From Rhizobiaceae bacterium (GTDB lineage Bacteria; Pseudomonadota; Alphaproteobacteria; Rhizobiales; Rhizobiaceae): a DNA stretch of 46,109 nt. The notes below the pieces were generated by a model. That model was given only the letters and a program-made list of their open reading frames with translations, was not told where the DNA came from and made no database searches. The stretch's first letter is position 1, and each line of letters begins with the position of its first letter. Shown piece by piece: positions 3,354 to 44,163 of this stretch. The DNA is taken from NCBI GenBank assembly GCA_029212415.1, contig JARGOF010000044.1, forward strand, positions 1 through 46,109, given 5' to 3'. The position numbers and the translations under genes are program-made.

Positions 3354-3499
3354 AAATAATACCAATAAAACAACAGGATAGATATTTTTCTATCCGCATG
3401 AACGGTAGATGAACGGGCGGTTTCAATTCGGTTCAGCCGCATCCTCCTAAGGTCAGTCCATCGCAATCAGGCGATGAAAGAGCCACAAAGGAGAGCACA

Positions 3500-4903: not shown

Positions 4904-4990
4904 ATTTTGTTTGTGTCCAAACCGGAGACGTGGGCGACGAACCGGATAAGGTTGCGCGCAGTGTCCGGCGCTTCCCGTTAGAGTGTCAAC

Positions 4991-4995
4991 CTTGG
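4991..4995. repeat. Target-site duplication, left copy (CTTGG)
   Basis: The five bases CTTGG directly precede the TG terminus of the prophage and recur directly after its CA terminus at 42595-42599. A 5-bp duplication is what Mu-type DDE transposition leaves. Confidence 0.72.
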
Positions 4996-5040
4996 TGTAG
5001 CGCGCCGGCGGGTTTTGGGGTTTTTGCCATGCGGTTTTGG
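4996..5040 (+). promoter_or_regulatory. Prophage right end (attR-type) with two transposase-binding-like repeats
   Basis: After the terminal TG the sequence contains GGTTTTGG at 5011-5018 and again at 5033-5040, exactly 22 bp apart. In Mu the right end carries two adjacent 22-bp MuA sites, so the geometry is the same. The opening TGTAGCGCGCC is also reminiscent of the Mu right end. Binding by this phage's transposase is inference. Confidence 0.6.
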
Positions 5041-5045
5041 AACAA

Positions 5046-8000
5046 TCACGGCAACGCGCAGGCAACAGTCGCGGCAATGGAATAGGCGATTTGCCGCAAT
5101 CCGTAATAGGGGCTGGTGGCTGCATCCGGGTGAACCGTGTCGGTAATCGTCTTGACCTGCTCGTCATTGACAGAGCTCAGGTCTTCAGTTGCAGAATAGG
5201 GGAAAACCCAGTCACGCGACATGGTGGCCCATGCGCCACAAATATGGATATTCGAATCTGACAGGGTCTCGATATCCGTGATGCAGTTTTCAATCCAGCT
5301 CGCCGTTTCTCCGGCCCAGCGCGTATTGCCCGAGGTTGTGGATGAGCGCGCATAGGCCGGGACAACGACGATCGGCACATCAGCGTCCCAATCGCGTATC
5401 TTGGCGATCATCAGATCAAGCCCGTCGCGCATGAATGAAAGCCGCTGCGCATCGCTGTAGGTGCTGCGATCAAGATCCAGGTCGTTGCGCTCCAGACAGA
5501 TCACAATCACATCCGGCGCGGATACGCTTCGCGACGTGATGTAATTGGCAAAATCAAAAATATAGAAATCGCCAGTCTCCGGGCTGCCATCATCAGTATA
5601 GGACGTTTCGTCCAGCGCGCCGGTAAATCGGAAACACAAATCAGGGTAATTTGTCTTGTCCGTTCCATCCGCCACCTTGAGCAGCGGGTTTTCAAATTTC
5701 GTTGTCGTGGTCCCGGCGCCAGGTATGCTGTGCGCCCCTTGGCCAGTCGAATAATTGTCCTTGCCGATGAATTTTCTATAGGACCAGTACCCCCGCGCTT
5801 CGCCAAGCAAGCTATCACTGGCGCCTGACGAATAGGTACCAACCGGGGTGACAGACGAAGCACCTTTGTCAATGAGAGCAGCCTTGATCTCGGTCATCAG
5901 CCCATCCTCGCCGATGCTGTCACCAATCTGCAATATGTTTATTGATTCGCCTGAAAGAGAAGGTGCCGTTGAGATCGCAACCGATTTCAAATAGCGTTTG
6001 TCCGGCTGATTATCATGACGAATACCAATATCAATGCTGCTTCCGAGCGCTGTTGCATCAAGCAAAAAATCGTTGTGAAATCCGATGTCCGTATCAATGT
6101 CGGTGGATTTATTTGTTCGCAGATTGCAGCCGATGCTTGAGAGCAAGGAATATTCTGTCGCCGTCAGGATAGAGGTTTTGTAGAGCCGCCGCGGCACATC
6201 AGAAAACATGTGCAACGTAGGCGGCAGCAGCAGGCGGTGGATATCTTCAGCGAACGTCATTGATGTTTCAACACTAGAGACACCTGAGCTATTGATATAA
6301 ACGATGCTGCCAGCTTCAGACAAAAGTGGGTATAGCTGCTCGCCATATATCATCGCGATGAGCGCGTGCGTCACACCATTTGGTGTACCACTGTTATACT
6401 TGAGAACAGAGACTGTGCCTGCTGACTTATCGAGAAGAACCCAGCGGAGATAAGTCGGGTTGGTGGTGTCAATCGACACATTCTGACTTGCTGTGACACT
6501 GACACTATCCGCGCCGAAAGTTGCAAAACCCGTATCGCCGGAAGTCGTGATTGTTCCGGCTTCCATGTCAATTTCAAGGTCCTGGCCCGCATAATAGATG
6601 GCCACATCAAGTTGCTGCTCGTCGTCATAGTTATAGTGGACAACGCTGTTGTCATCCTTATAGCTGATCGCAGCATTTGGCGCGGACGTATAGAGGACAC
6701 GATTATAGACATACCCGATCACCGCCGCATTCAAGGGTGGAATAACAGTACCTTGACAAGCCCCGACATTCCCTGTGGTCATATCCGCATAGATATACAA
6801 CGGCAGCGTAGCACTTGCTGCTGTGAAAGAAACAGACTGGCTTGCACCTATCGAAACAGAATATCCGTTCCATATAACCGCACCGGCTGTGCCACTCGTG
6901 GTCACAAGTTTCGTTGTGTAATCAACCAGCAATGTCTGACCTGTTTTAACATAAACGCCAACGCGCGCGTCCAGCGGCAAAGGTGCGATACGGCTCCAGG
7001 AGCCTGCACCAGATGCGCCCGATTTCTGATAAATCCCCATATAGGATTGTGTGCTGTCGGCAACCACCCATGCGGAAGCATTGGCGTCATGATCAAGGTC
7101 TGCATTGAGGTTTGAGCGGGTGTCATAGATCAGTCCACCGTTTGCGATAGCATCTGTTGCCGAGTCAGCAGCCGCATCGCGTGCCGTCTCCGCATCCGTC
7201 TTCGCCGTTTCCGCCAGAACCCGCTGCGCACTGGCCTTGGCCGAGTGGTGCAACGCCGAATAGTCCGTCGCGCCATCGCCGCCCGCCGCCTCGCTGACCG
7301 GCGTGTCCTCAGCCGCCTGTGCCCATTCCTCTGCATAGGTCTTTTCATCCGCAGCCTTGGCAGAATGATGCAACGCCGAATATTCCGTCGCGCCGTCACC
7401 GCCCGCCGCCTCGCTGACCGGCGTGTCCTCAGCCGCCTGCGCCCATTCCTCTGCCCAACCCAACACCGTTTCCAGCGTGCCAAAGGAATTGGCCCAATAC
7501 TTGGCAGACCTGTCGGTCGAGCCATCGCCACCCGCCGCCTCGCTGACCGGATCATCGCTTTGCGCCCATTCCTGCGCATAGGCCTGGGCGGCTTCACAGG
7601 CCGTTTGAATGGCGCTCGTGGCCTGGTCGGAGAGCATTTGAAACCAGGCGCCGGAGTTGGTGATCTGGCCGATCACGGGCATTCCGGCGGCCAGGGCGCC
7701 GATCGCAGGTGGATTGCCGGAGGCCGTCTTGATGGTCAGCGCCGTGCCGTCATTGAAGGCGACTGTCACCGTGCCGCTGGTGTTGGTTATCGGCACCAGG
7801 AAGGTGACCATCTGGCCGCCGTCATCGGAGACCGCGTAATCGGTCTCGATGGTGATGGCGTTGGCGGCGCTGCCCGTGTTGCCCACCTCGTGAATGACAG
7901 GTTCCAGCAAGGCCGCCAGGCGGATCCAGTTTGAGGCGTAGGTTGTTGTCGATGCGCTGGCGGTGATGGCCGCGACGCGGTCGCCGAGGCGGAAGGCGAC

Positions 8001-33489: not shown

Positions 33490-33752
33490 TGCATCTTCTC
33501 CGGTTGTGGGTGGATGGAGGCCGCCTGGGTGCGCATGCGCGCCTCAATCTCGGCCTGCAGTTTGCGGCAGGCAGCCAGCTCGCCATCGATGACTTCGGCA
33601 AATGCCCTGAAGTTGCGGAGATATTCGACCATGCGGTTCAGCACATGGTCATCCACCGGCTGGCCGGGCGTAATGCCTTCTGTCAGCGTTTCTGTCAGCC
33701 ATTCGACATGTTCGGCCATGCTTGACAGGGGCGTGTGGTTTTCTTCACTCAT
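33486..33752 (-). CDS. Hypothetical early protein
   Basis: The 88-aa acidic helical protein has MAEHVEWLTETLTEGITPGQP, MVEYLRNFRAFAEVIDGELA and a Gln-rich end. The ATG overlaps the MuB stop. No family is recognised. Confidence 0.65.
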   Translation of the reverse strand: MSEENHTPLSSMAEHVEWLTETLTEGITPGQPVDDHVLNRMVEYLRNFRAFAEVIDGELAACRKLQAEIEARMRTQAASIHPQPEKMQ

Positions 33753-34768
33753 GTCAGCCCCTCCACGTCGCGGTTTTCCCAGGCGGCCTTCAGATCAGCC
33801 AGCGTTGGTGACCGGCCTGCGCCCGCCGCCAGCATCTTGGCGAGCTTGACCGTCATGTCGATCTGACGGAGCGCGCCCGGCTTCATGCCGACGCCGGTGA
33901 GGAAGCGCACCTGGTCGGCATCGCCGATGCCGCAGGCCTTGATGAATTTGGCCAGATCCTCCCTGCGCGGTGTTTCGCTGCGCATCCGCTTGAAAAAGCG
34001 ACTGCGCAGCTGGGCGTATTTGACACCACCGGCAAGGCCGATAGAAAACCGCGAATAGGTTTCCGTATTGCCCAGGATCGCAACGCCGCATTCATAGACA
34101 TCGACAAAGTGGCGCAACTGGTTGACCGCATCATCCACCAGGTTCTGCGCCTCATCGACAATCAGCAATGTGCCGGCGCCTTTGCGGCGCAGCTTCTCGC
34201 CGATCATGGACACCAGTTCGCTGGGATTGCGCTGGCTGATACCAAGTTGCCTGCGGATTTCGTTCAGCATCGCATGCACGGTTTTGGTATGCGGGCTGAT
34301 CGTCACCATGTAGCAATGCGGGTCGTTGTCACCATAGTGGTGCGCTACCATCGTCTTGCCCATGCCGGAGCCCGCGGTCGCCATGATCATTGCCGGCATC
34401 ATCTGCGCGGCCCGCAACAGATCGGTGATCTCGCCAGCAATGGCCGTATGGATGAAGGGCGGCGAGGCGGGGATTGTCGCCGCCAGGGCAGAGCGCTCGT
34501 CATGCGCCTCCAGCCATGACGCCACTTTTTCATTGGTGCGGTCGAAGCGGCCCTTGTAGCTGCCCGTATACCAGCCGTGAAAGGTTGCGTCGGGCAGGCC
34601 GATCTGCCGGGCCGCCTCCGCCTTGCTCCACTTGTTGCGCATGGCGATCGCATGCACCTTGACGGCCAGCGCCTTCCAGGTGTCGATGTCGCTTTCGGCG
34701 CGGCCCGGGCCATTGTCAAAGGCCTGATCCATGTCCGGCAGGGGCCAGCTTGTATTTGCTTCGCTCAT
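33749..34768 (-). CDS. MuB-like transposition ATPase
   Basis: The 339-aa protein has an N-terminal HTH (WSKAEAARQIGLPDATFHGWY, about 47-67) and an AAA+ ATPase core with Walker A GSGMGKT at 133-139, Walker B LLIVDEAQN with Asp205-Glu206, and sensor-like VAILGNTETY. MuB binds target DNA in an ATP-dependent way and delivers it to the transposase, also giving target immunity. I start at ATG 34768 with a GAGGAG site. It lies downstream of the transposase with a 132-bp gap. Confidence 0.93.
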   Translation of the reverse strand: MSEANTSWPLPDMDQAFDNGPGRAESDIDTWKALAVKVHAIAMRNKWSKAEAARQIGLPDATFHGWYTGSYKGRFDRTNEKVASWLEAHDERSALAATIPASPPFIHTAIAGEITDLLRAAQMMPAMIMATAGSGMGKTMVAHHYGDNDPHCYMVTISPHTKTVHAMLNEIRRQLGISQRNPSELVSMIGEKLRRKGAGTLLIVDEAQNLVDDAVNQLRHFVDVYECGVAILGNTETYSRFSIGLAGGVKYAQLRSRFFKRMRSETPRREDLAKFIKACGIGDADQVRFLTGVGMKPGALRQIDMTVKLAKMLAAGAGRSPTLADLKAAWENRDVEGLT

Positions 34769-34816
34769 AAGGTAGTCTCCTCGTGTGATATGGGCCGCAT
34801 TGGCGGCTCTTCTTTC

Positions 34817-34844
34817 GGCGGGCCATTCGGTCCGCCATTTTTCT
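34817..34844 (+). terminator. Plus-strand intrinsic terminator-like hairpin between transposase and ATPase genes
   Basis: GGCGGGCC (34817-34824) and GGTCCGCC (34829-34836) pair with one G-U around ATTC and are followed by ATTTTTCT. The T run is on the plus strand, against the operon. It may stop antisense transcription into the transposase gene, or act as a processing hairpin in the operon mRNA. Confidence 0.5.
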
Positions 34845-34900
34845 TGGTTCCTGCGCCTACCCTGCACTTATGGCGCTTGTCCCACCGGCAAACCGGCAGA

Positions 34901-36832
34901 TCACATGTCCTCGCGGCCGCCTGAAATCAGCCGTAACCCGCGGGAAAAATTCGCTTCCGCCTCGTCGTTCCATTCGCCCTGCGTCTCTGCTTCATCGGCC
35001 AGCGCCGCCGCGCCATTGCCGCCGGCAACCGCGATACGGGTGACCTTCGGTTTCTGCACCCGTGGCCGCTGCGGGTCGCCCTGCGCATAAATCTCCGCCA
35101 GATCGGCGGCGGTCAGCTCCGTATGCATCCGCTGCATTTCGCGGGTTGCCTTCATGAACCGGTTCTTTCTGGCGGCATGGCTGCGGGCGTCTTCGGAACT
35201 GTTGAATAATGTGTCGCCGACCAGTTGCGCCGCGCAGATCAGCCGGTCGCTCTTGTCATAGACATGCACGTCACGCGCCAGATCGTCCGGGTCGAAGCGC
35301 ACGGTCACCTTGCGGCCCGCATGGCCGCTCAGCGCGCCGTTCCAATAGCGGTTGCCGAATATCTCGATCATGCCATTGGCCTTCGAGGCGCGGATCTGTT
35401 CGGCGGCCAGCAGCCACAGCGAGCGCTGCGCGGCGCTCGGCCAGCGCACCACGGTCGATGGCTCGGCCAGGCTGGCGGCGAATGTCTCGTCGAAGCTGCG
35501 GCCCCGGGCATTTTCCGCACGCCGTCCGGGCCGCGCATTGTGCTCGGCGATCATCGCGTCGACATGGTCGCGCAGCACCTCCACGGTGATGGCGGCGCTG
35601 GCGTAATTATCCGGCTTGGCATCAGGGTTGTTGCCGGTGTAGCAGCCCGAACACAGCGGATGCTTGCAGATCGTGTCGGCGAGATCGCGGAAGGCCCGTT
35701 CGATCGGCTTCGACTGGCCCGAATAGGGGGTTGTCCAGTGAACCTCGACGCCCAGCGTCGTCAGCAGGCCTTGCGGTTCCTCGTCGCGCACCTTGTAGCG
35801 GTGCCTCCATTCCATCCGGCCGGTGATCCATTTCGAGGCAAAGGCGCGGCCATTGTCGGAATACAACATGTCGGGAATGCCGTAGCGCTCGACCATGTCG
35901 CCGATCACCAGCCGCGTCGTTTCCTTGTTCTCGCTTTCCGACAGGCGCCAGGCCAGGAACTTCCCGGACTGGATGTCCTGAATGGCGATCATGCAAACGC
36001 GCATCGGCTTTTTCCGGCCGGGCCAATAGACGAAGAGGTCGAGCATGTGGCCGTCGATATTGACCGCCTGCATGGCATGGAAATGGCTGCGCGTGCGGCG
36101 CTGCGCCGGATAGAGCGTCTTGGCCTTGTCGCGGCCATTGCGCGCCATGACAATTGTCTCCCTCGGCACATCGGCTTCCAGATGCCGCCGCATGGCGCGC
36201 TCGGAGGGGATCGGTGACCAGCCCTGTTTGGTGGCCGCCTGGCGCATGCGCCGATAGCACGATGAAAAGCTCGGGCGTTCTGGCCGCAGGTAATCCGATT
36301 TCAACACCGCATAGGCGTCCGGGTCACATTCGGCGCGCGCGCTGGCGCCCTTATAATCCGGCGCCAGCGCCGCCAGCCAATCGGTCCGGTCAATATCGGC
36401 GATCTTCGACAGCCAGTTCTGCAGCGATCCGGTGGAGACCTGGTGCTGGCGCGCGGCAAGGCGCACGGCCGCCGTCTTGCCGATCCCGCCTTTCAGCAGG
36501 GTCTCGAAATGGTTGACGATATCCAGGCGTTTTCGGGCGCTCTCCTTATGGGCGCTCGAAAGCCGTTCGAAGCGCTGCCACAGAGCGCTGCGCGCCGCAT
36601 CGCCGTCGCATTGTTCTGCCTGCGCCGCCGCCATCAGCCGGGCCTGCATGGGGCCTGGCAAGAGCGAAAAGTGATATTCCCAGCCGCCGCCACGAGATGC
36701 CGATTTGCGCGCCAGATCGGACCGGCTGCGCCAGCCCTCATTCCTGGCGAGCCGGTTCACACCGCCAATGCCACCCTGAATGTCAGACCCGGCCAGGTCG
36801 ACGATCTCGCGTGTGGTGTAAAATTCCTTCAT
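34901..36832 (-). CDS. MuA-like DDE transposase
   Basis: The 643-aa protein (MuA is 663) starts at ATG 36832. It has a MuA-type N-terminal winged domain (FYTTREIVDLAGSDIQGGIG, GGGWEYHFSLLPG), an end-binding region at about 115-220 (CYRRMRQAATKQGWSPIPSE), and an RNase H-like core with Asp260 (QAVNIDGHMLD), Asp326 (MLYSDNGRAF) and Glu378 (GQSKPIERAFRD). The C-terminal part contains the Mu beta-barrel and a basic ATPase-contacting tail. It cuts and joins phage ends to target DNA. Longer in-frame sequence upstream of ATG 36832 lacks family features. Confidence 0.95.
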   Translation of the reverse strand: MKEFYTTREIVDLAGSDIQGGIGGVNRLARNEGWRSRSDLARKSASRGGGWEYHFSLLPGPMQARLMAAAQAEQCDGDAARSALWQRFERLSSAHKESARKRLDIVNHFETLLKGGIGKTAAVRLAARQHQVSTGSLQNWLSKIADIDRTDWLAALAPDYKGASARAECDPDAYAVLKSDYLRPERPSFSSCYRRMRQAATKQGWSPIPSERAMRRHLEADVPRETIVMARNGRDKAKTLYPAQRRTRSHFHAMQAVNIDGHMLDLFVYWPGRKKPMRVCMIAIQDIQSGKFLAWRLSESENKETTRLVIGDMVERYGIPDMLYSDNGRAFASKWITGRMEWRHRYKVRDEEPQGLLTTLGVEVHWTTPYSGQSKPIERAFRDLADTICKHPLCSGCYTGNNPDAKPDNYASAAITVEVLRDHVDAMIAEHNARPGRRAENARGRSFDETFAASLAEPSTVVRWPSAAQRSLWLLAAEQIRASKANGMIEIFGNRYWNGALSGHAGRKVTVRFDPDDLARDVHVYDKSDRLICAAQLVGDTLFNSSEDARSHAARKNRFMKATREMQRMHTELTAADLAEIYAQGDPQRPRVQKPKVTRIAVAGGNGAAALADEAETQGEWNDEAEANFSRGLRLISGGREDM

Positions 36833-38947: not shown

Positions 38948-39371
38948 GGTCGCTCCCTTCGCTCAGCGCTTCCTGAGCGCTCAAGGCCATCTGTGAATAG
39001 GCATCCTGGAAATCGGCGAATTGCAGCCTGTCTTCGACGGTGCGCAGCGCCCGGTTGACCGCCTCGCGGGAGCGGGCTAGCTCCTCGGCGACAGCGCGCT
39101 TCGGCACGGCGAATTCCTCCACCAGCAGATAAAGCGCGATCTGCCGCGCCAGGGCGGCGTCAAACCATTGATGCGGCGGCGAGGCGATGTCGGCTTCCGA
39201 CAGATGCGGGAAGCGGCTGCGCACACCGCGCACACTGGCCTCGAACAGCGGCACCACAGAACCACGCCCACCGATGCCGTAATCCACCTTTGGCGGCGCT
39301 GGCGGCTTATCCTCACCCTTCGGCAGGGCGGCAAACAGCAGCGGAAAGGAATCACGCATCGTCGCCACCAT
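38934..39371 (-). CDS. DnaA domain IV-like DNA-binding protein
   Basis: The roughly 145-aa protein contains ARQIALYLLVEEFAVPKRAV followed by AEELARSREAVNRALRTVED at about 85-125, which resembles the HTH of DnaA domain IV (helix, basic loop, then a DHTTV-like recognition helix). The ATPase part of DnaA is absent. It may bind phage or host DNA at replication-related sites; this is inference. The start may be 39371 or 39359 (MRDSF), both overlapping the preceding gene. Confidence 0.65.
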   Translation of the reverse strand: MVATMRDSFPLLFAALPKGEDKPPAPPKVDYGIGGRGSVVPLFEASVRGVRSRFPHLSEADIASPPHQWFDAALARQIALYLLVEEFAVPKRAVAEELARSREAVNRALRTVEDRLQFADFQDAYSQMALSAQEALSEGSDHEQD

Positions 39372-39735
39372 CGCCCTGGGCCCGTCGCGCTGCGCGATCA
39401 AGATGCTCGATCTCGGCAAGGATAAGTGCAGCGGATCGCACCAGGTTGCTGCGGCGATCCGTCAGCCTGAGCAGATCAATCGACCAGGGCCACAGCGCGC
39501 GCCACAACAATTGTCCGGCGCTAAGACGCGCGTTCGCCACTTCTTTGGGCAGGGCATAGGTCACGGCCGCAAGGGCGCATGTACCGGGCATGTATCTGTC
39601 TTCATCTTCCGGCGTGAAAAGCTCCCCGCTGACCTGGTGAAGCCGCTCAGCAAAAATCTCGTCCGCGATTTGGCGCATCCGATCGAAGTAAGTGACGCGG
39701 CATCCGCCAGCGTTGCTGGAATGGACCTGTGTCAT
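39352..39735 (-). CDS. Hypothetical early protein
   Basis: The 127-aa protein has VTYFDRMRQIADEIFAERLH, ALAAVTYALPKEVANARLSA and WPWSIDLLRLTDRRSNLVRSA ending in AEIEHLDRAARR. This pattern occurs in phage early regions. GGAGG lies 7 nt before ATG 39735, and the ATG overlaps the preceding stop. Function unknown. Confidence 0.75.
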   Translation of the reverse strand: MTQVHSSNAGGCRVTYFDRMRQIADEIFAERLHQVSGELFTPEDEDRYMPGTCALAAVTYALPKEVANARLSAGQLLWRALWPWSIDLLRLTDRRSNLVRSAALILAEIEHLDRAARRAQGDGGDDA

Positions 39736-39899
39736 GTCCGTGCCTCCGCGCGCTTTCGACGTTGCGCCATCGTCGGTGGTCGGCGATGATCCTGAGGCGA
39801 TTTCCGCTGACCGGAAGCGTGATAACGGTCACGCCACAGCAGCTCTGGTCTGGTTCCGAGAGCAGCGGAAATCGTTGGAGATTTGGAAGATGTTTTCAT
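39732..39899 (-). CDS. Short basic peptide (55 aa) with MKTSSKSPT start
   Basis: The frame MKTSSKSPTISAALGTRPEL... ends REA-type basic (RRKRAEART). It begins inside the stop of the 45-aa gene and its stop overlaps the next ATG, so it is coupled on both sides. Its first nine codons nearly repeat those of the upstream peptide at both DNA and protein level. Function unknown. Confidence 0.6.
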   Translation of the reverse strand: MKTSSKSPTISAALGTRPELLWRDRYHASGQRKSPQDHRRPPTMAQRRKRAEART

Positions 39900-40033
39900 G
39901 GTTTGTCTTCCTTGATGCTTTCGCTGCGACGATTGATTGCCATGAACTGCCGCCGCCGTTCCGCATGTTCTCTGGCGGCGTCAACATCGTCAAAGGAGGT
40001 GTGTTCAGTTGGAGATTTGGATGATGTGTTCAT
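39896..40033 (-). CDS. Short peptide (45 aa) with MNTSSKSPT start
   Basis: The frame MNTSSKSPTEHTSFDDVDAA continues with a charged helix (REHAERRRQFMAINRR) and ends DKP. Its ATG overlaps the stop of the Rha-like gene, and its stop overlaps the start of the 55-aa peptide. The N-terminal repeat with the next gene suggests duplication. Function unknown. Confidence 0.62.
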   Translation of the reverse strand: MNTSSKSPTEHTSFDDVDAAREHAERRRQFMAINRRSESIKEDKP

Positions 40034-40848
40034 GGTTTAACCCTCGTCTGAGCGCTCAGGAGCGCGTTGACCCGGCGCCGCAAGGACCGCTCGGAAAGGA
40101 TGGGCGACCAGCCGTTCTGGTCGGCTGTGGCGCGCATACGCCGGTAACAGTCGGAAAAGCCCCTGTACCGCTTAGTGCGCAGCAATCTGGTCAGGGTCGC
40201 CCAGGCTTCTGGATGGCATTCCTGTGGCGCAGCGCCCCCGCGATACTGCGGCGTCAGCGCAGCCGGGCGGTCGCAACTCTGCACCATGCGCACCGAAGCG
40301 CGCCAGCTGTAGATCGTGCTGGTGCAGACGCTGGCCTGCTCGGCGGCGAGCCGGGCCGCGTCACTCACCTTCGCGCCGACGGATCGCGCCTGGTCGAACG
40401 TATCGAGCGCGGCCTGCCTCCGTTCACTCTCTGCGCGCCAGCGTTCGGCGGTGTCGTTGTGATGCTTGCGCAGACTGTCGATCTCGTTGGCGCGCGGATC
40501 GGGCAGGTCTCGCTCCAGTTCGCCCCGCCGCCATGCCAGATAGACAGAGATGACCTGTTCACGGACATCCGCAGCCCGCTCGGTATCGCTGTATACGCAA
40601 ATGAGCAGAGCCTGCGCTTCATTGAGCAGGAACCCCTGCTCAGGGCGACCCCTGCCTATTTTCGCCCCACGGTAGGGCGAAATTCCGCCATAACGAAGCA
40701 ACTCGTTCATATTGCGCCGGATCAGCTCGCGAATTTTGCGCGGACGCTCGAACCCAAGCCGCTCGGCAAGGTCGAGGTCCCGCACGCGGGGTTCGGCGCT
40801 GACGACGGTCAAGTCGGACACCGTAAGGGCTGTAAGCGCCGAGCTCAT
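40030..40848 (-). CDS. Rha-like regulatory domain fused to a MuA-type DNA-binding segment
   Basis: The 272-aa protein has an N-terminal phage-regulatory (Rha/Bro-N-like) domain: RVRDLDLAERLGFERPRKIR, ELIRRNMNELLRYGG and QGFLLNEAQALLICVYSDTE. After a coiled linker, residues about 158-265 align with residues 115-220 of this phage's own transposase, including ECxPxAxA and SCYRRMR/DCYRRMR, GWSPI and SER. I count about 40 identities over some 100 positions. The catalytic core is absent. It may bind the same end or enhancer sites and regulate transposition. It lies third in the early operon. Confidence 0.82.
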   Translation of the reverse strand: MSSALTALTVSDLTVVSAEPRVRDLDLAERLGFERPRKIRELIRRNMNELLRYGGISPYRGAKIGRGRPEQGFLLNEAQALLICVYSDTERAADVREQVISVYLAWRRGELERDLPDPRANEIDSLRKHHNDTAERWRAESERRQAALDTFDQARSVGAKVSDAARLAAEQASVCTSTIYSWRASVRMVQSCDRPAALTPQYRGGAAPQECHPEAWATLTRLLRTKRYRGFSDCYRRMRATADQNGWSPILSERSLRRRVNALLSAQTRVKP

Positions 40849-41180
40849 GGCTTCTTCCCGATGAAGCGGAAAACACTAGCCGCGACAGCGGCGAAAGCCC
40901 GCTCTGGCGGCCTGGATGGCGGTTGAGATGGATATGCGGGATAGCCCTCGCCCAGCATCAGCCAGGCAAGGTCACAGCAGAAAGCAGCCGCATAGACGCG
41001 CGCATATGCAACAGAGACGCCGCATCGGCCAGATTCTTGCGAATAGTACATTTCGTGAGGCCAGCCGTTTTGGATGGCCGCAGCCCGCGCGCTTCTGTAT
41101 CCGGCAGCGATCCGAGCCTGCTGAAGTCGCGCCGATCTTTGCTTGCGTTCGATTCGCTCCAGCTTGGAAAAATCGATCAT
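40845..41180 (-). CDS. Xre/CII-like HTH protein
   Basis: The 111-aa protein has RSARLQQARIAAGYRSARAA, AIQNGWPHEMYYSQESGRCG and YARVYAAAFCCDLAWLMLGE, the pattern of a Cro/CI-type HTH that ends in the typical W-L-x-x-G-E-G. The C-terminus is Pro-rich. It is the second early gene, so a CII- or Cro-like regulator is likely. It is overlapped on both sides (ATGA). Confidence 0.75.
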   Translation of the reverse strand: MIDFSKLERIERKQRSARLQQARIAAGYRSARAAAIQNGWPHEMYYSQESGRCGVSVAYARVYAAAFCCDLAWLMLGEGYPAYPSQPPSRPPERAFAAVAASVFRFIGKKP

Positions 41181-41395
41181 GCCGTGTCTCCTCTAACTTC
41201 GAAGAACCAGCTATCCGCCCAGGAAAGGTCCCGCCGATGAGCCTCAGCCCGAATACGTTCGAGTACTGGGAGGCGCGGATGCAATTCTCCTGCTTCCCAG
41301 CGGCTCACGACGCTTTGCGGGACGCCTGCGATGCTGGCGAACTCAACTTGTGTGACGCGAAAGACGTTTTTTCGTATGTGGAGGATCTGGTTCAT
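41177..41395 (-). CDS. Cro/Ner-like repressor, first early gene
   Basis: The 72-aa protein is almost entirely an HTH_3 domain (RVTQVEFASIAGVPQSVVSR, then WEAGELHPRLPVLERIRAEA). It faces the CI-like gene across the operators, the place of cro in lambda and ner in Mu. It probably dampens the early promoter and repressor synthesis. The ATG has no Shine-Dalgarno sequence; the predicted transcript would start within a few bases of it. Confidence 0.85.
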   Translation of the reverse strand: MNQILHIRKNVFRVTQVEFASIAGVPQSVVSRWEAGELHPRLPVLERIRAEAHRRDLSWADSWFFEVRGDTA

Positions 41396-41405
41396 AAAGT
41401 GGAAT

Positions 41406-41419
41406 ATACGTCAACGTAT
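41406..41419. promoter_or_regulatory. Operator 1 (ATACGTCAACGTAT)
   Basis: One of three dyads of the form ATACGNNNNCGTAT between the divergent repressor and Cro-like genes. It overlaps the -10 of the early promoter. Confidence 0.75.
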
Positions 41420-41424
41420 ATAAT
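41419..41424 (+). promoter_or_regulatory. Putative repressor promoter -10 (TATAAT)
   Basis: A perfect TATAAT on the plus strand lies 55 bp before the repressor ATG. The -35 region is poor, as for a maintenance promoter that needs activation by bound repressor. Its position between operators 1 and 2 fits this. Confidence 0.5.
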
Positions 41425-41429
41425 TTGCA

Positions 41430-41443
41430 ATACACAAACGTAT
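41430..41443. promoter_or_regulatory. Operator 2 (ATACACAAACGTAT)
   Basis: Second dyad of the ATACGNNNNCGTAT type, with one arm changed. Centre-to-centre distance is 24 bp to operator 1 and 26 bp to operator 3. Confidence 0.7.
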
Positions 41444-41455
41444 TTTACTGCAAAT

Positions 41456-41469
41456 ATACGCTATCGTAT
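41456..41469. promoter_or_regulatory. Operator 3 (ATACGCTATCGTAT)
   Basis: Third dyad, with perfect ATACG/CGTAT arms, ten bp before the repressor ATG, where bound protein could block repressor synthesis. Confidence 0.75.
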
Positions 41470-41478
41470 AACTTGCCG

Positions 41479-42093
41479 ATGAACGTCCCCATGATAGTTA
41501 TGCATCTGCAGGCAGCCACTGGCTGGAGCCAAGCTAAGCTGGCAACGCACTTAGGTGTGAGTCAGCCAGATGTTTCGAGGTGGAAAAAGGGTAGCGAACC
41601 CAAGGGGCACAATATGGAAGCTCTTCGCCAACTGGCGATGGAGTACGGTGTGCTCAATAAGGAAAGGGAACGCCAGGCCATATCCATCATGGGCCATATC
41701 GAAGCCGGCGGTGCGGTCGACGGCTGGACGGACCAGGCGCCGGATGAAAGTATGGAGCAGATCGAACTGCCGGACACGGCTGCAATTGCCTCGTCCATGA
41801 TTGCAAACCCTGTTGGCTTCCGCGTCCTGGGCGACTCTATGTATCCCCGCTTCCGCGACGGCGAGATCCTTGTCGTTGAGCGATATCCACGCGTCGGTAT
41901 CGAAACATTCATCTATATTGAGGCCGCGATCATCACCGTCGATGGCTTGCGTTGCATCAAACGCGTCATGCCCGGTCGGAGGCCCGGCATCTATACGCTC
42001 GAAAGCGTCAACCCGGTATTCCCGCCGATCGCCGACGTGGCAATACGCTGGGCAAGCCCGGTTCGTTTCATGATTTTAAATGTCGGTCTGTAA
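41479..42093 (+). CDS. CI/LexA-type prophage repressor (HTH plus S24 peptidase domain)
   Basis: The 204-aa protein has an N-terminal HTH (WSQAKLATHLGVSQPDVSRW, residues 16-35) and an S24 autocleavage domain: hinge IEAGG (74-78), nucleophile Ser120 in VLGDSMYPRFRDGEILVVER, and Lys161 in GLRCIKRV. It should hold lysogeny and be inactivated by RecA-stimulated self-cleavage, as lambda CI and unlike the Mu c repressor. I use ATG 41479 after operator 3; none of the possible starts (41425, 41479, 41491, 41500) has a Shine-Dalgarno site, and 41425 would lie within the operators. Confidence 0.88.
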   Translation: MNVPMIVMHLQAATGWSQAKLATHLGVSQPDVSRWKKGSEPKGHNMEALRQLAMEYGVLNKERERQAISIMGHIEAGGAVDGWTDQAPDESMEQIELPDTAAIASSMIANPVGFRVLGDSMYPRFRDGEILVVERYPRVGIETFIYIEAAIITVDGLRCIKRVMPGRRPGIYTLESVNPVFPPIADVAIRWASPVRFMILNVGL

Positions 42094-42121
42094 GGTTTCG
42101 CCCCAGGTTGGCGCGAAACCT
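42093..42121 (+). terminator. Hairpin after the repressor gene
   Basis: AGGTTTCGC (42093-42101) pairs perfectly with GCGAAACCT (42113-42121) immediately at the repressor stop codon. A competing stem, GCGCGAAA (42111-42118) with TTTCGCGC (42128-42135), overlaps it. The T run is weak (CGATTT). Confidence 0.6.
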
Positions 42122-42250
42122 CCTCGATTTCGCGCCACCGTGGCAAAAACGTCTGCCCAACTTAAATCAGCTTGTCGCCGCCTGATCGCAAAACGCTAAC
42201 GCATTGTTCTGGTTGTTGTATTTCAATTATTGGCGACCCGTTTCCTTCAC

Positions 42251-42267
42251 TTGTGCAAATTGCACAA
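42251..42267. promoter_or_regulatory. 17-bp perfect palindrome TTGTGCAA-A-TTGCACAA
   Basis: Two 8-bp arms mirror each other around a single A. This is a typical dimeric regulator site. The core TGTGCA...TGCACA resembles rhizobial lux/tra boxes but with a spacer of 3 rather than 4, so the binding protein is open. Confidence 0.65.
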
Positions 42268-42570
42268 CTTGATTTTGCTTTTCCGCCCTAATACAATGGC
42301 CTTGGATGATCCTTTCGAAGGTGAGGCTTCAAATCGAAATCAACCATGTTCTCAATGGCTTGCGAATGGACAAGACGCACACGCCAGTTTGTTTTCGAAG
42401 GATGTTTGAGGACCTGTCGGGGATCGCCCGAAGACCAGCCGAAACCATCGTTTTGTCTAAAACCTGCTGGCAAATGAACCAACCGCCAAATTTTTCGCGG
42501 CACCTTCTAAGTCATTGTTCTCCCATCGATACTCGCCAAATCCAATCTAATCTCGGGTAATCCCGGAAAT

Positions 42571-42594
42571 CCCAGAACCTCGTGTCAAACAACA
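42571..42594 (-). promoter_or_regulatory. Prophage left end (attL-type terminus)
   Basis: Read inwards on the minus strand, the end is TGTTG... with GGTTCTGGG at positions 16-24, matching GGTTTTGGG at the same positions of the other end. The next five bases outside are the duplicated CTTGG. Confidence 0.68.
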
Positions 42595-42599
42595 CTTGG
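42595..42599. repeat. Target-site duplication, right copy (CTTGG)
   Basis: Same five bases as at 4991-4995, directly after the terminal CA of the prophage. Confidence 0.72.
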
Positions 42600-42796
42600 C
42601 ACACAATGACCACAAAAACTTGAATGAAAATCATCCTCTGGATTTATGGCGCTGGCTGAAAGGGAGAGCCGGCGAGCAGACCACGACTGATGATGGCACC
42701 TGGCGCCGGACGAATTTGCGGCCCGGGTTGCCTCTACGGATATTGATCAGCACCGCAGTAGCAGACCTGCGCCTGTTCCGAGGAAATAATGATCGC

Positions 42797-43102
42797 CTAG
42801 CGGCTGCCGGTATGCTGCGCCCAATCCTCATGGCCGTGGCGAATACGGATGATCAAAACCTCTCCGCCTTCTTTCGTGATATAAATGATCAAATGCGCTT
42901 TGAACGGGTGTATTCGCACCGGAGGGGCCAGTTCTTCGCGCTGTCTGGCCATGTGTGGATTTGCCGCGATCAGGTCGAATAAGTCGAACAGTTCATCATG
43001 ATATTTTTGGGCTTGAGCGCGACCAAAAAGGCGTAACCCCGCCTCGGCTATACTGATGATATCCTCTTCAGCTTCGCGGGAAAGTTGATAACCCATCGTC
43101 AA
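42797..43102 (-). CDS. ParE/RelE-family toxin
   Basis: The 101-aa protein has the ParE pattern: MGYQLSREAEEDIISIAEAG, AQKYHDELFDLFDLIAANPH, MARQREELAPPVRIHPFKAHLI and a C-terminal VLIIRIRHGHEDW with the conserved R-x-x-H. ParE toxins usually poison DNA gyrase. The stop codon of the antitoxin overlaps its ATG; a start at MGYQ two codons later is possible. It is chromosomal, about 200 bp outside the prophage end. Confidence 0.9.
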   Translation of the reverse strand: MTMGYQLSREAEEDIISIAEAGLRLFGRAQAQKYHDELFDLFDLIAANPHMARQREELAPPVRIHPFKAHLIIYITKEGGEVLIIRIRHGHEDWAQHTGSR

Positions 43103-43350
43103 TTTCTGTGTGTGGCATCCACCCGCGCCTGTGCTTCTGCGAACAGTGCATCTTTCGACCGCTCACCTATACCGTTTTCCAAGCCTTCGTCGACAAAGCG
43201 TTGCATGGCGGCAATCTTATCATTGCGCTCTTGATCCTTGCGTATCAGATCGCGCACATAGTCGCTCGCATTGGAATAGCGGCCGGTTTTCGCCTGCGCT
43301 TCCACCCAGTCCTTCATTGGATCGGGAAGGGACACGTTCATGGTAGCCAT
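43099..43350 (-). CDS. ParD-family antitoxin
   Basis: The 83-aa protein has a ribbon-helix-helix N-terminus (MNVSLPDPMKDWVEAQAKTG followed by RYSNASDYVRDLIRKDQERN) and an acidic C-terminal toxin-binding tail. This is the ParD pattern. It overlaps the toxin gene by 4 bp (ATGA) and should autoregulate the operon. Confidence 0.92.
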   Translation of the reverse strand: MATMNVSLPDPMKDWVEAQAKTGRYSNASDYVRDLIRKDQERNDKIAAMQRFVDEGLENGIGERSKDALFAEAQARVDATHRN

Positions 43351-43479
43351 CGTAAGTCTCCTATATTAAAAATATGGCAGATTTTGGCAATCCTTGTCAA
43401 ACATTGAGCTAACGGTGAGATGAATTGTCTGTGCGCCATTTGCGTCCCGAAAGCTCGCTAATTCCGGTTATAGGTTACC

Positions 43480-43945
43480 CAAACCCTTTATTCGTTTTCT
43501 GCCCCTCTTTAGCGGCATGAGAACCCGGCCCGTTTGCTTCTCCAGCACGGATGGCGTCTTTACAGCGTCATTATCATCGCCTGCCAGAAAGACGCGGGCA
43601 CGCGACCATGCCCAGTCCCAAGCCCACTATGATGCGTTGGGCAAGACTTCCTGCACAGGATTGAGCGTGACATAACGGATGGCGTCAGACAGGTGCATTT
43701 CGTCCATGATCACCGATCCATAGCGTCCCTGACACAGATGTCTCGTGGTTCCGGCCCATGCAATGATACGCAAAGGGTTTGGCGCCAGGCCTGGGTCTCG
43801 CATCGGGCGCGTTCTGCATTCTCGGCCAGCATGTTCAGAGAGAGCGCATCGTCGGTTCCTTCAAAAACACCTGCCCGCGCCTGTTGCCACGCTGGGTGAC
43901 AAGATGCGGCAGACCAGGGACAACTAGGCGGGCGATGCGAGCCAT
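43480..43945 (-). pseudogene. Decayed RAYT (REP-associated tyrosine transposase)
   Basis: Three pieces of one protein remain in different frames. The N-terminus MARIARLVVPGLPHLVTQRG starts at 43945 and stops at 43835. A middle part reads CQGRYGSVIMDEMHLSDAIR then YVTLNPVQEV (about 43745-43627). A C-terminal part reads AWDWAWSRARVFLAGDDNDA. These are typical of RAYT/Y1 transposases (LPHHVTQRGNRR, RYVxLNPVRA, DWPWSS). The catalytic His-x-His and Tyr region is lost. It is inactive. Confidence 0.82.
43486..43547 (+). repeat. Inverted repeat arm 1 (about 62 bp)
   Basis: Near-identical in inverted orientation to 44073-44135, with one indel in a T run and two changes. Both arms derive from the RAYT C-terminal coding end (TGCTGGAGAAGCAAACGGGC region). 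Confidence 0.88.
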
Positions 43946-43973
43946 GAGACATTTGTGGTTTAATTACGGGATT

Positions 43974-43995
43974 GAGTATACTGTCACCGGAATTC
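43974..43995 (+). repeat. RAYT-associated repeat motif, copy 1
   Basis: The 22 bases here (key part ACTGTCACCGGAATTC) match 44142-44163 at 19 of 22 positions. Motifs of this type flank RAYT genes in other bacteria. Confidence 0.7.
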
Positions 43996-44010
43996 GACGC
44001 TGTATAGGTG

Positions 44011-44135
44011 CCATCCGTGCTGAAGCGTGTGAGTGATTTCGTCCAGTTTCCGGGCGACCCCTTCAATGAAGATGCTGGAGAAGCAAACGGGCCGGGTTCT
44101 CATGCCGTAAAAGAGGGGCAGAAAAACGAATAAAG
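44011..44135 (+). pseudogene. RAYT C-terminal fragment, opposite orientation
   Basis: The plus strand reads PSVLKRVSDFVQFPGDPFNE and then, after a frame change, EKQTGRVLMP and KRGRK. This is the C-terminus of a RAYT like that on the other strand, where the piece between PSVL and EKQTG is deleted. The two fragments together show the ancestral order. Confidence 0.7.
44073..44135 (-). repeat. Inverted repeat arm 2 (about 63 bp)
   Basis: Partner of 43486-43547. Confidence 0.88.
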
Positions 44136-44141
44136 AGGACT

Positions 44142-44163
44142 GAGTAAACTTTCACCGTAATTC
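44142..44163 (+). repeat. RAYT-associated repeat motif, copy 2
   Basis: The 22 bases here (key part ACTTTCACCGTAATTC) match copy 1 at 43974-43995 except at three positions; it directly follows the plus-strand RAYT fragment. Confidence 0.7.

Follow-up and report, generated by a model that had tools for sequence, protein, structure and literature searches.

A Rha-like regulator joined to a MuA-type end-binding domain in a Mu-like prophage of a Rhizobiaceae bacterium

Why would a gene in the immunity region of a Mu-like prophage encode the end-binding part of a transposase and none of its catalytic part? The question is raised by a 272-aa protein encoded on the minus strand of Rhizobiaceae contig JARGOF010000044.1 (C62), the whole of which we analysed (46,109 nucleotides, hereafter the window; Table 1). 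The first-pass annotation, which placed the open reading frame correctly, described a Rha-like regulator fused to a copy of the same phage's transposase segment. It proposed that the protein could occupy the phage ends or an enhancer as a transposition inhibitor, or link the lysis-lysogeny decision to transposition.

Table 1. Features of the window discussed in the text
Feature	Coordinates	Strand	Basis
5-bp target duplication CTTGG, right side	4991..4995	.	end pairing
Right phage end, TG terminus 4996; R1 5008-5029 (firm), R2 5030-5051 (weaker)	4996..5051	(+)	end pairing, matrix scans
MuB-type ATPase	33749..34867	(-)	Pfam
Resident MuA transposase, likely start Met58 of 700-aa frame	34901..36832	(-)	Pfam, PHROG
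ner remnant, 55-aa frame	39732..39899	(-)	comparison with G026
45-aa ORF behind fusion gene, ATGA overlap	39896..40033	(-)	sequence
Rha-like/MuA Ibeta-gamma fusion protein, 272 aa	40030..40848	(-)	Pfam, BLASTP, AF2, Foldseek, hhalign
MuA-type end-binding domain Ibeta+Igamma, residues 143-270	40039..40422	(-)	Pfam, BLASTP, Foldseek, hhalign
Predicted long linking helix, residues 118-156, into MuA-like half	40381..40497	(-)	AF2 model
N-terminal Rha/Bro-N-type regulatory domain, residues ~8-112	40513..40827	(-)	PHROG, relatives' Phage_pRha, weak viral folds
111-aa HTH-type regulator, ATGA start/stop overlap with fusion gene	40845..41180	(-)	PHROG transcriptional repressor, E 9.6e-5
72-aa HTH regulator, Cro/Ner position, ATGA overlap with next gene	41177..41395	(-)	PHROG transcriptional regulator, E 3.5e-6; NCBIfam below cutoff
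Palindromic operator-like site TATACG-N4-CGTATA, putative function	41405..41420	.	sequence
Second TATACG-N4-CGTATA site	41455..41470	.	sequence
c-type repressor of cassette, frame open from 41425 (TTG)	41479..42093	(+)	by eye (HTH + S24-like), relatives
Left phage end, TG terminus 42594; L1 42561-42582 (firm), L2 42468-42489, L3 42446-42467 (weaker)	42446..42594	(-)	end pairing, matrix scans
5-bp target duplication CTTGG, left side	42595..42599	.	end pairing

Two modules in one protein

The C-terminal half of the fusion protein is a MuA-type Ibeta-Igamma end-binding domain, and the likeness is far beyond chance. Residues 143-270 align in BLASTP with residues 158-285 of the resident MuA, counted in its 700-aa frame (51/129 identities, 57% positives, E 2e-23), and residues 187-268 score 25.1 bits against PF09039 (HTH_Tnp_Mu_2, Mu DNA binding, Igamma), above its cutoff of 20.5. 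The transposase numbering of the first-pass annotation agrees with a MuA start at Met58 of that frame (about 36832). PF09039 is the sole Pfam match in the fusion at E<=0.1; at that threshold we found no DDE catalytic domain, as the first-pass annotation had also noted, and no GIY-YIG nuclease or other effector domain. The protein ends at residue 272, directly behind Igamma, and the DDE core and C-terminal domain of MuA are absent. The first-pass annotation had named two further comparisons for judging the resemblance, of profiles and of predicted structures, and both bear it out. Against a profile of 17 transposases, the C-terminal half gave an hhalign probability of 99.8 (E 5e-29). With the AF2 model of the fusion (mean pLDDT 90.0, pTM 0.50), Foldseek returned only chains B and A of the Mu transpososome 4fcy from the PDB at E<=0.001, followed by weaker matches to 2ezl and 2ezk (Ibeta; E 0.34 and 0.47, prob 0.99) and 2ezi (Igamma; E 2.1, prob 0.77). 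A model of domain I of the resident MuA likewise has 4fcy as its top match, and by eye the helices follow the same order in both models.

The N-terminal half is known chiefly through its relatives. No Pfam entry matches it, Phage_pRha (PF09669) being without a match in the fusion itself at E<=0.1, and the PHROG anti-repressor Ant matches weakly (E 2.8e-4). Among relatives of the N-domain, Phage_pRha was found in all eight of a first set at E<=1, one of them above cutoff (phiKX1, 32.7 bits), and in six of the ten of a second set at E<=0.1, none above cutoff; Bro-N also matched, below cutoff. Among predicted viral structures, the top of the list for the fusion includes regulatory proteins, repressors and Bro-N proteins; TM-scores are low, several entries are unnamed, and a transposase stands at rank 9. 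Because this evidence comes via relatives, a weak PHROG match and weak viral folds, we use the term Rha-like at the level of the family, and the assignment of the N-terminus to a phage regulatory domain holds in that form, without a Pfam match in the protein itself. An identity with MuA Ialpha was considered and rejected (hhalign probability 1.7).

Taken together, these modules lead us to a tentative reading, possible though short of probable: the fusion may act early as a regulator without catalytic function, directed at end sites of the MuA type. A Rha/Bro-N-type regulatory domain would be joined through the long helix to the Ibeta-Igamma domain, which would bind MuA-type end sites; the protein could then compete with MuA at the ends or modulate it, such that transposition would be delayed or tuned during the lysis-lysogeny decision. 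In keeping with such a regulator, a Mu-like prophage in G139 has a Rha-like gene with a different C-terminus between a ner-like and a ParB-like gene (both named by eye). Other relatives of the N-domain have C-termini matching ANT/KilAC (phiKX1, E 2e-18), HTH_23 (L009) and Pox_D5 above cutoff, and resolvase HTH and HTH_17 below cutoff.

A divergent segment and a single case

To call the segment a copy of the one in the same phage's transposase, as the first-pass annotation did, overstates its kinship. Identity is about 40%, and in a tree of 21 rows the segment has an end branch of 1.92 and no supported neighbour, the nearest rows being other transposases, while the sister of the resident MuA is the MuA of G026 (support 100/97). 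Forcing the fusion and the resident MuA into one clade is 12.6 log units worse and is not rejected (p-AU 0.107). Other transposases are as close: the segment is 43.9% identical to the G032 MuA and, depending on the stretch, 39.6-47.9% identical to that of Microcystis phage Mwe-Yong1. With a branch of that length, and a shared clade neither supported nor rejected, a recent duplication from the resident MuA is not supported; judged by its sequence, the segment is a divergent MuA homologue and not a demonstrable recent copy. Forty-one positions are conserved across at least 80% of a set of 20 transposases, and the segment retains 27 of them, including CYRR, GW.P and ER.LRR. The conserved SDYLRPExP stretch is altered: by MAFFT seven of its positions are lost, but a gap placed by BLASTP and hhalign preserves the L and R, so the degree of loss is gap-dependent. 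In StopSmel, Aussie and POA1180, the fusion was matched solely by their transposases.

Searches for another Rha-MuA fusion found none. Among phages, none of 34 matching records covers 80% of the fusion query, and neither does any of seven matching plasmid records. The 12 viral_contigs loci and 3 genome_contigs loci, which come from scans that depend on exact peptide patterns, all have the N-half only, and in the relatives, where 27/301 genomes match, each of the listed matches covers one half, except for the window itself. HTH_Tnp_Mu_2 was found in 57/394 family genomes and 14/385 class genomes, sets that overlap and in which up to 11 candidates were scored per genome. In the family scan, 42 of the 72 matches have E <1e-19, all in frames of 637-873 aa, and the 30 weaker ones include six frames below 500 aa besides the fusion. 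All six were read by eye: a transposase core stretch is visible in five, the sixth is a short fragment of a frame interrupted by a stop, and the N-domain is in none. The class scan gave no other HTH_Tnp_Mu_2 frame below 500 aa, and no Rha-MuA fusion is named in the titles and abstract openings listed by searches of open-access literature. The fusion is a single case in all searches made, which counts against an end-site regulator.

A single case on a long branch could also be a passenger, that is, a chimeric gene that arrived with the cassette around it and whose partner site is gone here. We consider this distinctly improbable, as the frame is intact with a third-position G+C of 0.75 (0.80 in MuA), a purine-rich stretch lies 5' of the start (by eye), the gene is coupled to its neighbours by ATGA overlaps, and the AF2 model is a confident two-domain one.

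Phage ends and the immunity cassette

For a regulator aimed at end sites, the sites themselves have to be considered. The ends of the prophage were mapped at 4996 and 42594, one of six candidate TG/CA pairings with equal 5-mers between 4905-5045 and 42094-42789. We chose this pairing because a similar site lies at an equal 12-base offset from both termini, because R1-R2 and L2-L3 each form two abutting 22-bp units, and because a matrix built from the window ranks the end sites 44138, 5257 and 5373 of the G026 prophage first to third in a 60-kb stretch (44116 is ninth). The G026 prophage ends show the same site offset, and a GCGCT duplication was read there by eye. Leave-one-out scores are uneven (R1 14.8, R2 11.3, L1 5.7, L2 0.0, L3 0.2; random sequences peak at 11.7-15.1), and a matrix from the G026 sites alone ranks L1 1st, R1 4th, R2 52nd, L3 122nd and L2 246th among 92,176 positions, so we regard L1 and R1 as firm and R2, L2 and L3 as less so. 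Given repeated sites at both ends, it is possible that the fusion occupies them. Scores like those of the secondary sites are also reached at internal positions of the window (8816 17.1, 20194 16.3 and 6512 15.9, against R2 17.0, L3 13.3 and L2 12.5). StopSmel, a phage with a MuA of 48-49% identity, has a presumed left end that agrees poorly with the matrix (score 0.8, rank 46 of 22,100; the first 12 bases are 10/12 alike), and 40% identity is therefore no promise of shared specificity. The operator/cassette region has no prominent end-like site; its top scores in two scans, 8.4 and 7.0, lie within the random and internal background, and this leaves the enhancer variant of the first-pass annotation without sequence support.

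Immediately beyond the left end of the G026 prophage, locus L092 (G026:C7 from 349000) has two more R-end-type site pairs in minus orientation (3380-3423 and 5192-5235), perhaps remnants of other related transposable phages. Just beyond the left phage end in the window lies a toxin-antitoxin-like pair (42797-43350; ParE/RelE-like and ParD-like by eye), and 43461-44161 holds dispersed host repeats, each about 60-90 bp long, that recur many times in G000 and G004.

The fusion gene precedes that of MuA on the same strand, as would be expected of an early regulator. As we read it, the surrounding immunity cassette consists of the plus-strand repressor, two palindromic sites, the 72-aa and 111-aa HTH genes, the fusion gene and the 45-aa ORF, and was probably imported; ATGA overlaps join its last four genes. 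The G026 prophage is syntenic with the window from 12.3 to 39.3 kb, and past that 79 bp remain (39796-39874), with 97.5% identity to the 3' portion of the G026 ner-like gene. In G026 that gene is intact, c is only weakly similar (E 3e-4) and the fusion gene is absent. From the end of synteny, the ner remnant and the gene content of G026, we infer that c and most of ner gave way to an imported cassette. The remnant is preceded by 26 bp that nearly repeat the beginning of the 45-aa ORF, and the two can be read as the recombination scar. Relatives of the 111-aa HTH protein and of the repressor were not confirmed in the viral_contigs scans; in relatives' genomes they match in 38/251 and 61/251, the own genome included, with best non-self identities (by E-value) of 38% and 40%. 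Cassette DNA had no match in phage records, and seven Rhizobium plasmid records match the region at the ner remnant only. Since two repressor relatives (G252:C14 and G130:C23) have a MuA gene no more than about 4 kb away, the cassette may stem from another Mu-like phage. Next to the ner remnant, a 127-aa ORF (39352-39735) has PHROG matches, most of them to the C-termini of longer proteins whose function is unknown.

The company of the gene suggests another role, that of an ordinary transcription regulator or anti-repressor, whose MuA-type half would serve for promoter-site DNA binding or as a tether and whose Rha-like half would act on the repressor. ATGA overlaps with two HTH genes, beside a repressor and palindromic sites, agree with this, as do the ANT/KilAC or HTH C-termini of relatives. 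The top end-like score within 39700-42450 is only 7.0, below many peaks elsewhere in the window, and speaks against it, although this is a weak point, as the matrix may not suit a divergent domain. We consider such a role rather unlikely.

Another model is interference between phages, in which the domain would target the ends of other Mu-like phages and bring about superinfection exclusion, somewhat like Odn of phage ICP1 against satellites. Odn has a domain 42% identical to that of a replication initiator, and its cleavage of the origin depends on the iterons of that initiator (PMC8263062). The fusion is likewise a chimera with a replication-initiator-type DNA-binding domain at a similar identity, its gene sits in an imported cassette that may come from another Mu-like phage, and its segment is not closest to the resident MuA. 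Odn, however, has a nuclease domain, and Pfam matched neither a nuclease nor another effector domain in the fusion; interference seems unlikely to us. That Odn still mimics the initiator at 42% identity is nonetheless a counterweight to the caution on specificity that StopSmel calls for.

We keep to the end-site regulator as our tentative reading, supported by the domains, the fold, the conserved positions, the mapped ends, the precedents of Odn and Mu, and the own-primase tails described below. The long branch, the altered SDYLRPExP stretch, the StopSmel misfit and the strong internal scores weigh against it. What the first-pass annotation suggested of a transposition inhibitor or a lysis-lysogeny link is consistent with both domains, the upstream same-strand position and the repeated sites at the ends, and is weakened by the divergence of the domain, the import of the cassette and the lack of an end-like site standing out in the operator/cassette region.

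Known systems and tails in relatives

In sequence and fold, the end-binding half of the fusion resembles MuA Ibeta-Igamma (PF09039; PDB 4fcy, 2ezk, 2ezh), but the protein lacks Ialpha, the DDE core and domain III and has strongly diverged. With Rha/Bro-N proteins (PF09669, PF02498) it shares the type of N-domain (via relatives), a modular C-terminus and a place in the immunity or early region, and it differs from them in a transposase-type end-binding C-terminus, a pairing met nowhere else in the searches made. The Mu c repressor, which shares its DNA-binding region with the MuA N-terminus, is likewise a regulator that has a DNA-binding part in common with the transposase family. In Mu, however, the shared part is the N-terminal enhancer-binding one, whereas the fusion shares the end-binding part and its N-domain is not homologous to Ialpha. 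Domain shuffling of viral regulators was reportedly described by Iyer and colleagues in 2002. Modular Rha/Bro-N regulators are already known, as is a DNA-binding part common to regulator and transposase in Mu; a regulator using the end-binding half of a transposase is a new variation, of which the searches made gave no second case (literature consulted: PMC3362531, PMC8263062 and PMC3820752). If the fusion binds the ends, it would offer a naturally occurring, separable competitor for a MuA-type transposase, and the lysogeny decision would be tied to transposition via an end-binding domain. In Mu itself, the link between lysogeny and transposition uses the enhancer-binding domain.

Do other Rha-like proteins carry part of their own element's replication module? 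Of 36 N-domain rows, 33 have a tail of at least 40 aa, and each was compared with its own locus; with near-identical rows counted once (L003/L004/L006, L056/L081, L011/L035, the two in L083, L069/L070) about 27 are distinct, and nine rows sit in loci below 4 kb. Two tails, in L008 and in L085 (Tritonibacter mobilis plasmid), resemble the C-terminal region of the D5_N protein encoded upstream in the same element (within-locus E 1.3e-9 and 1.4e-7, respectively). D5_N is above cutoff in both primases and DUF5906 in that of L085 only. Including the window fusion, three of the 33 tails have a counterpart in an own replication protein, and none was found for the other 30; the match in L083 is between two copies of one gene, and that in L034 is weak and arises from an overlapping reading frame of the same DNA. 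In a comparison with 10,256 frames from 110 loci, the L008 and L085 tails each match only themselves and their own primase at E<=1e-3, in a set where similarity found only these two D5-type primases, so that "own closest" means one of two. Searched against 50,697 phage records, the L085 tail gave a single match, a DNA primase, and the L008 tail gave no match.

The own-primase tails of two elements hint at repeated capture of replication-protein modules. One could speculate that Rha/Bro-N-type regulators repeatedly capture the terminal module of their own element's replication protein and act as initiator mimics on origins or transposon ends, setting the timing of replication; this we hold to be doubtful, the choice between two primases having lowered our estimate. 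Such a class would be the phage counterpart of the capture of transposases in animal transcription factors, and the pattern, if true, would give a testable rule for reading unannotated Rha/Bro-N proteins. Elsewhere in the family, L010 has tandem Rha-like N-domain stretches within one open frame (3-2282, the first partial), and the two Rha-like genes of L083, an Azospirillum plasmid, lie about 6 kb apart with tails that are 91.6% identical.
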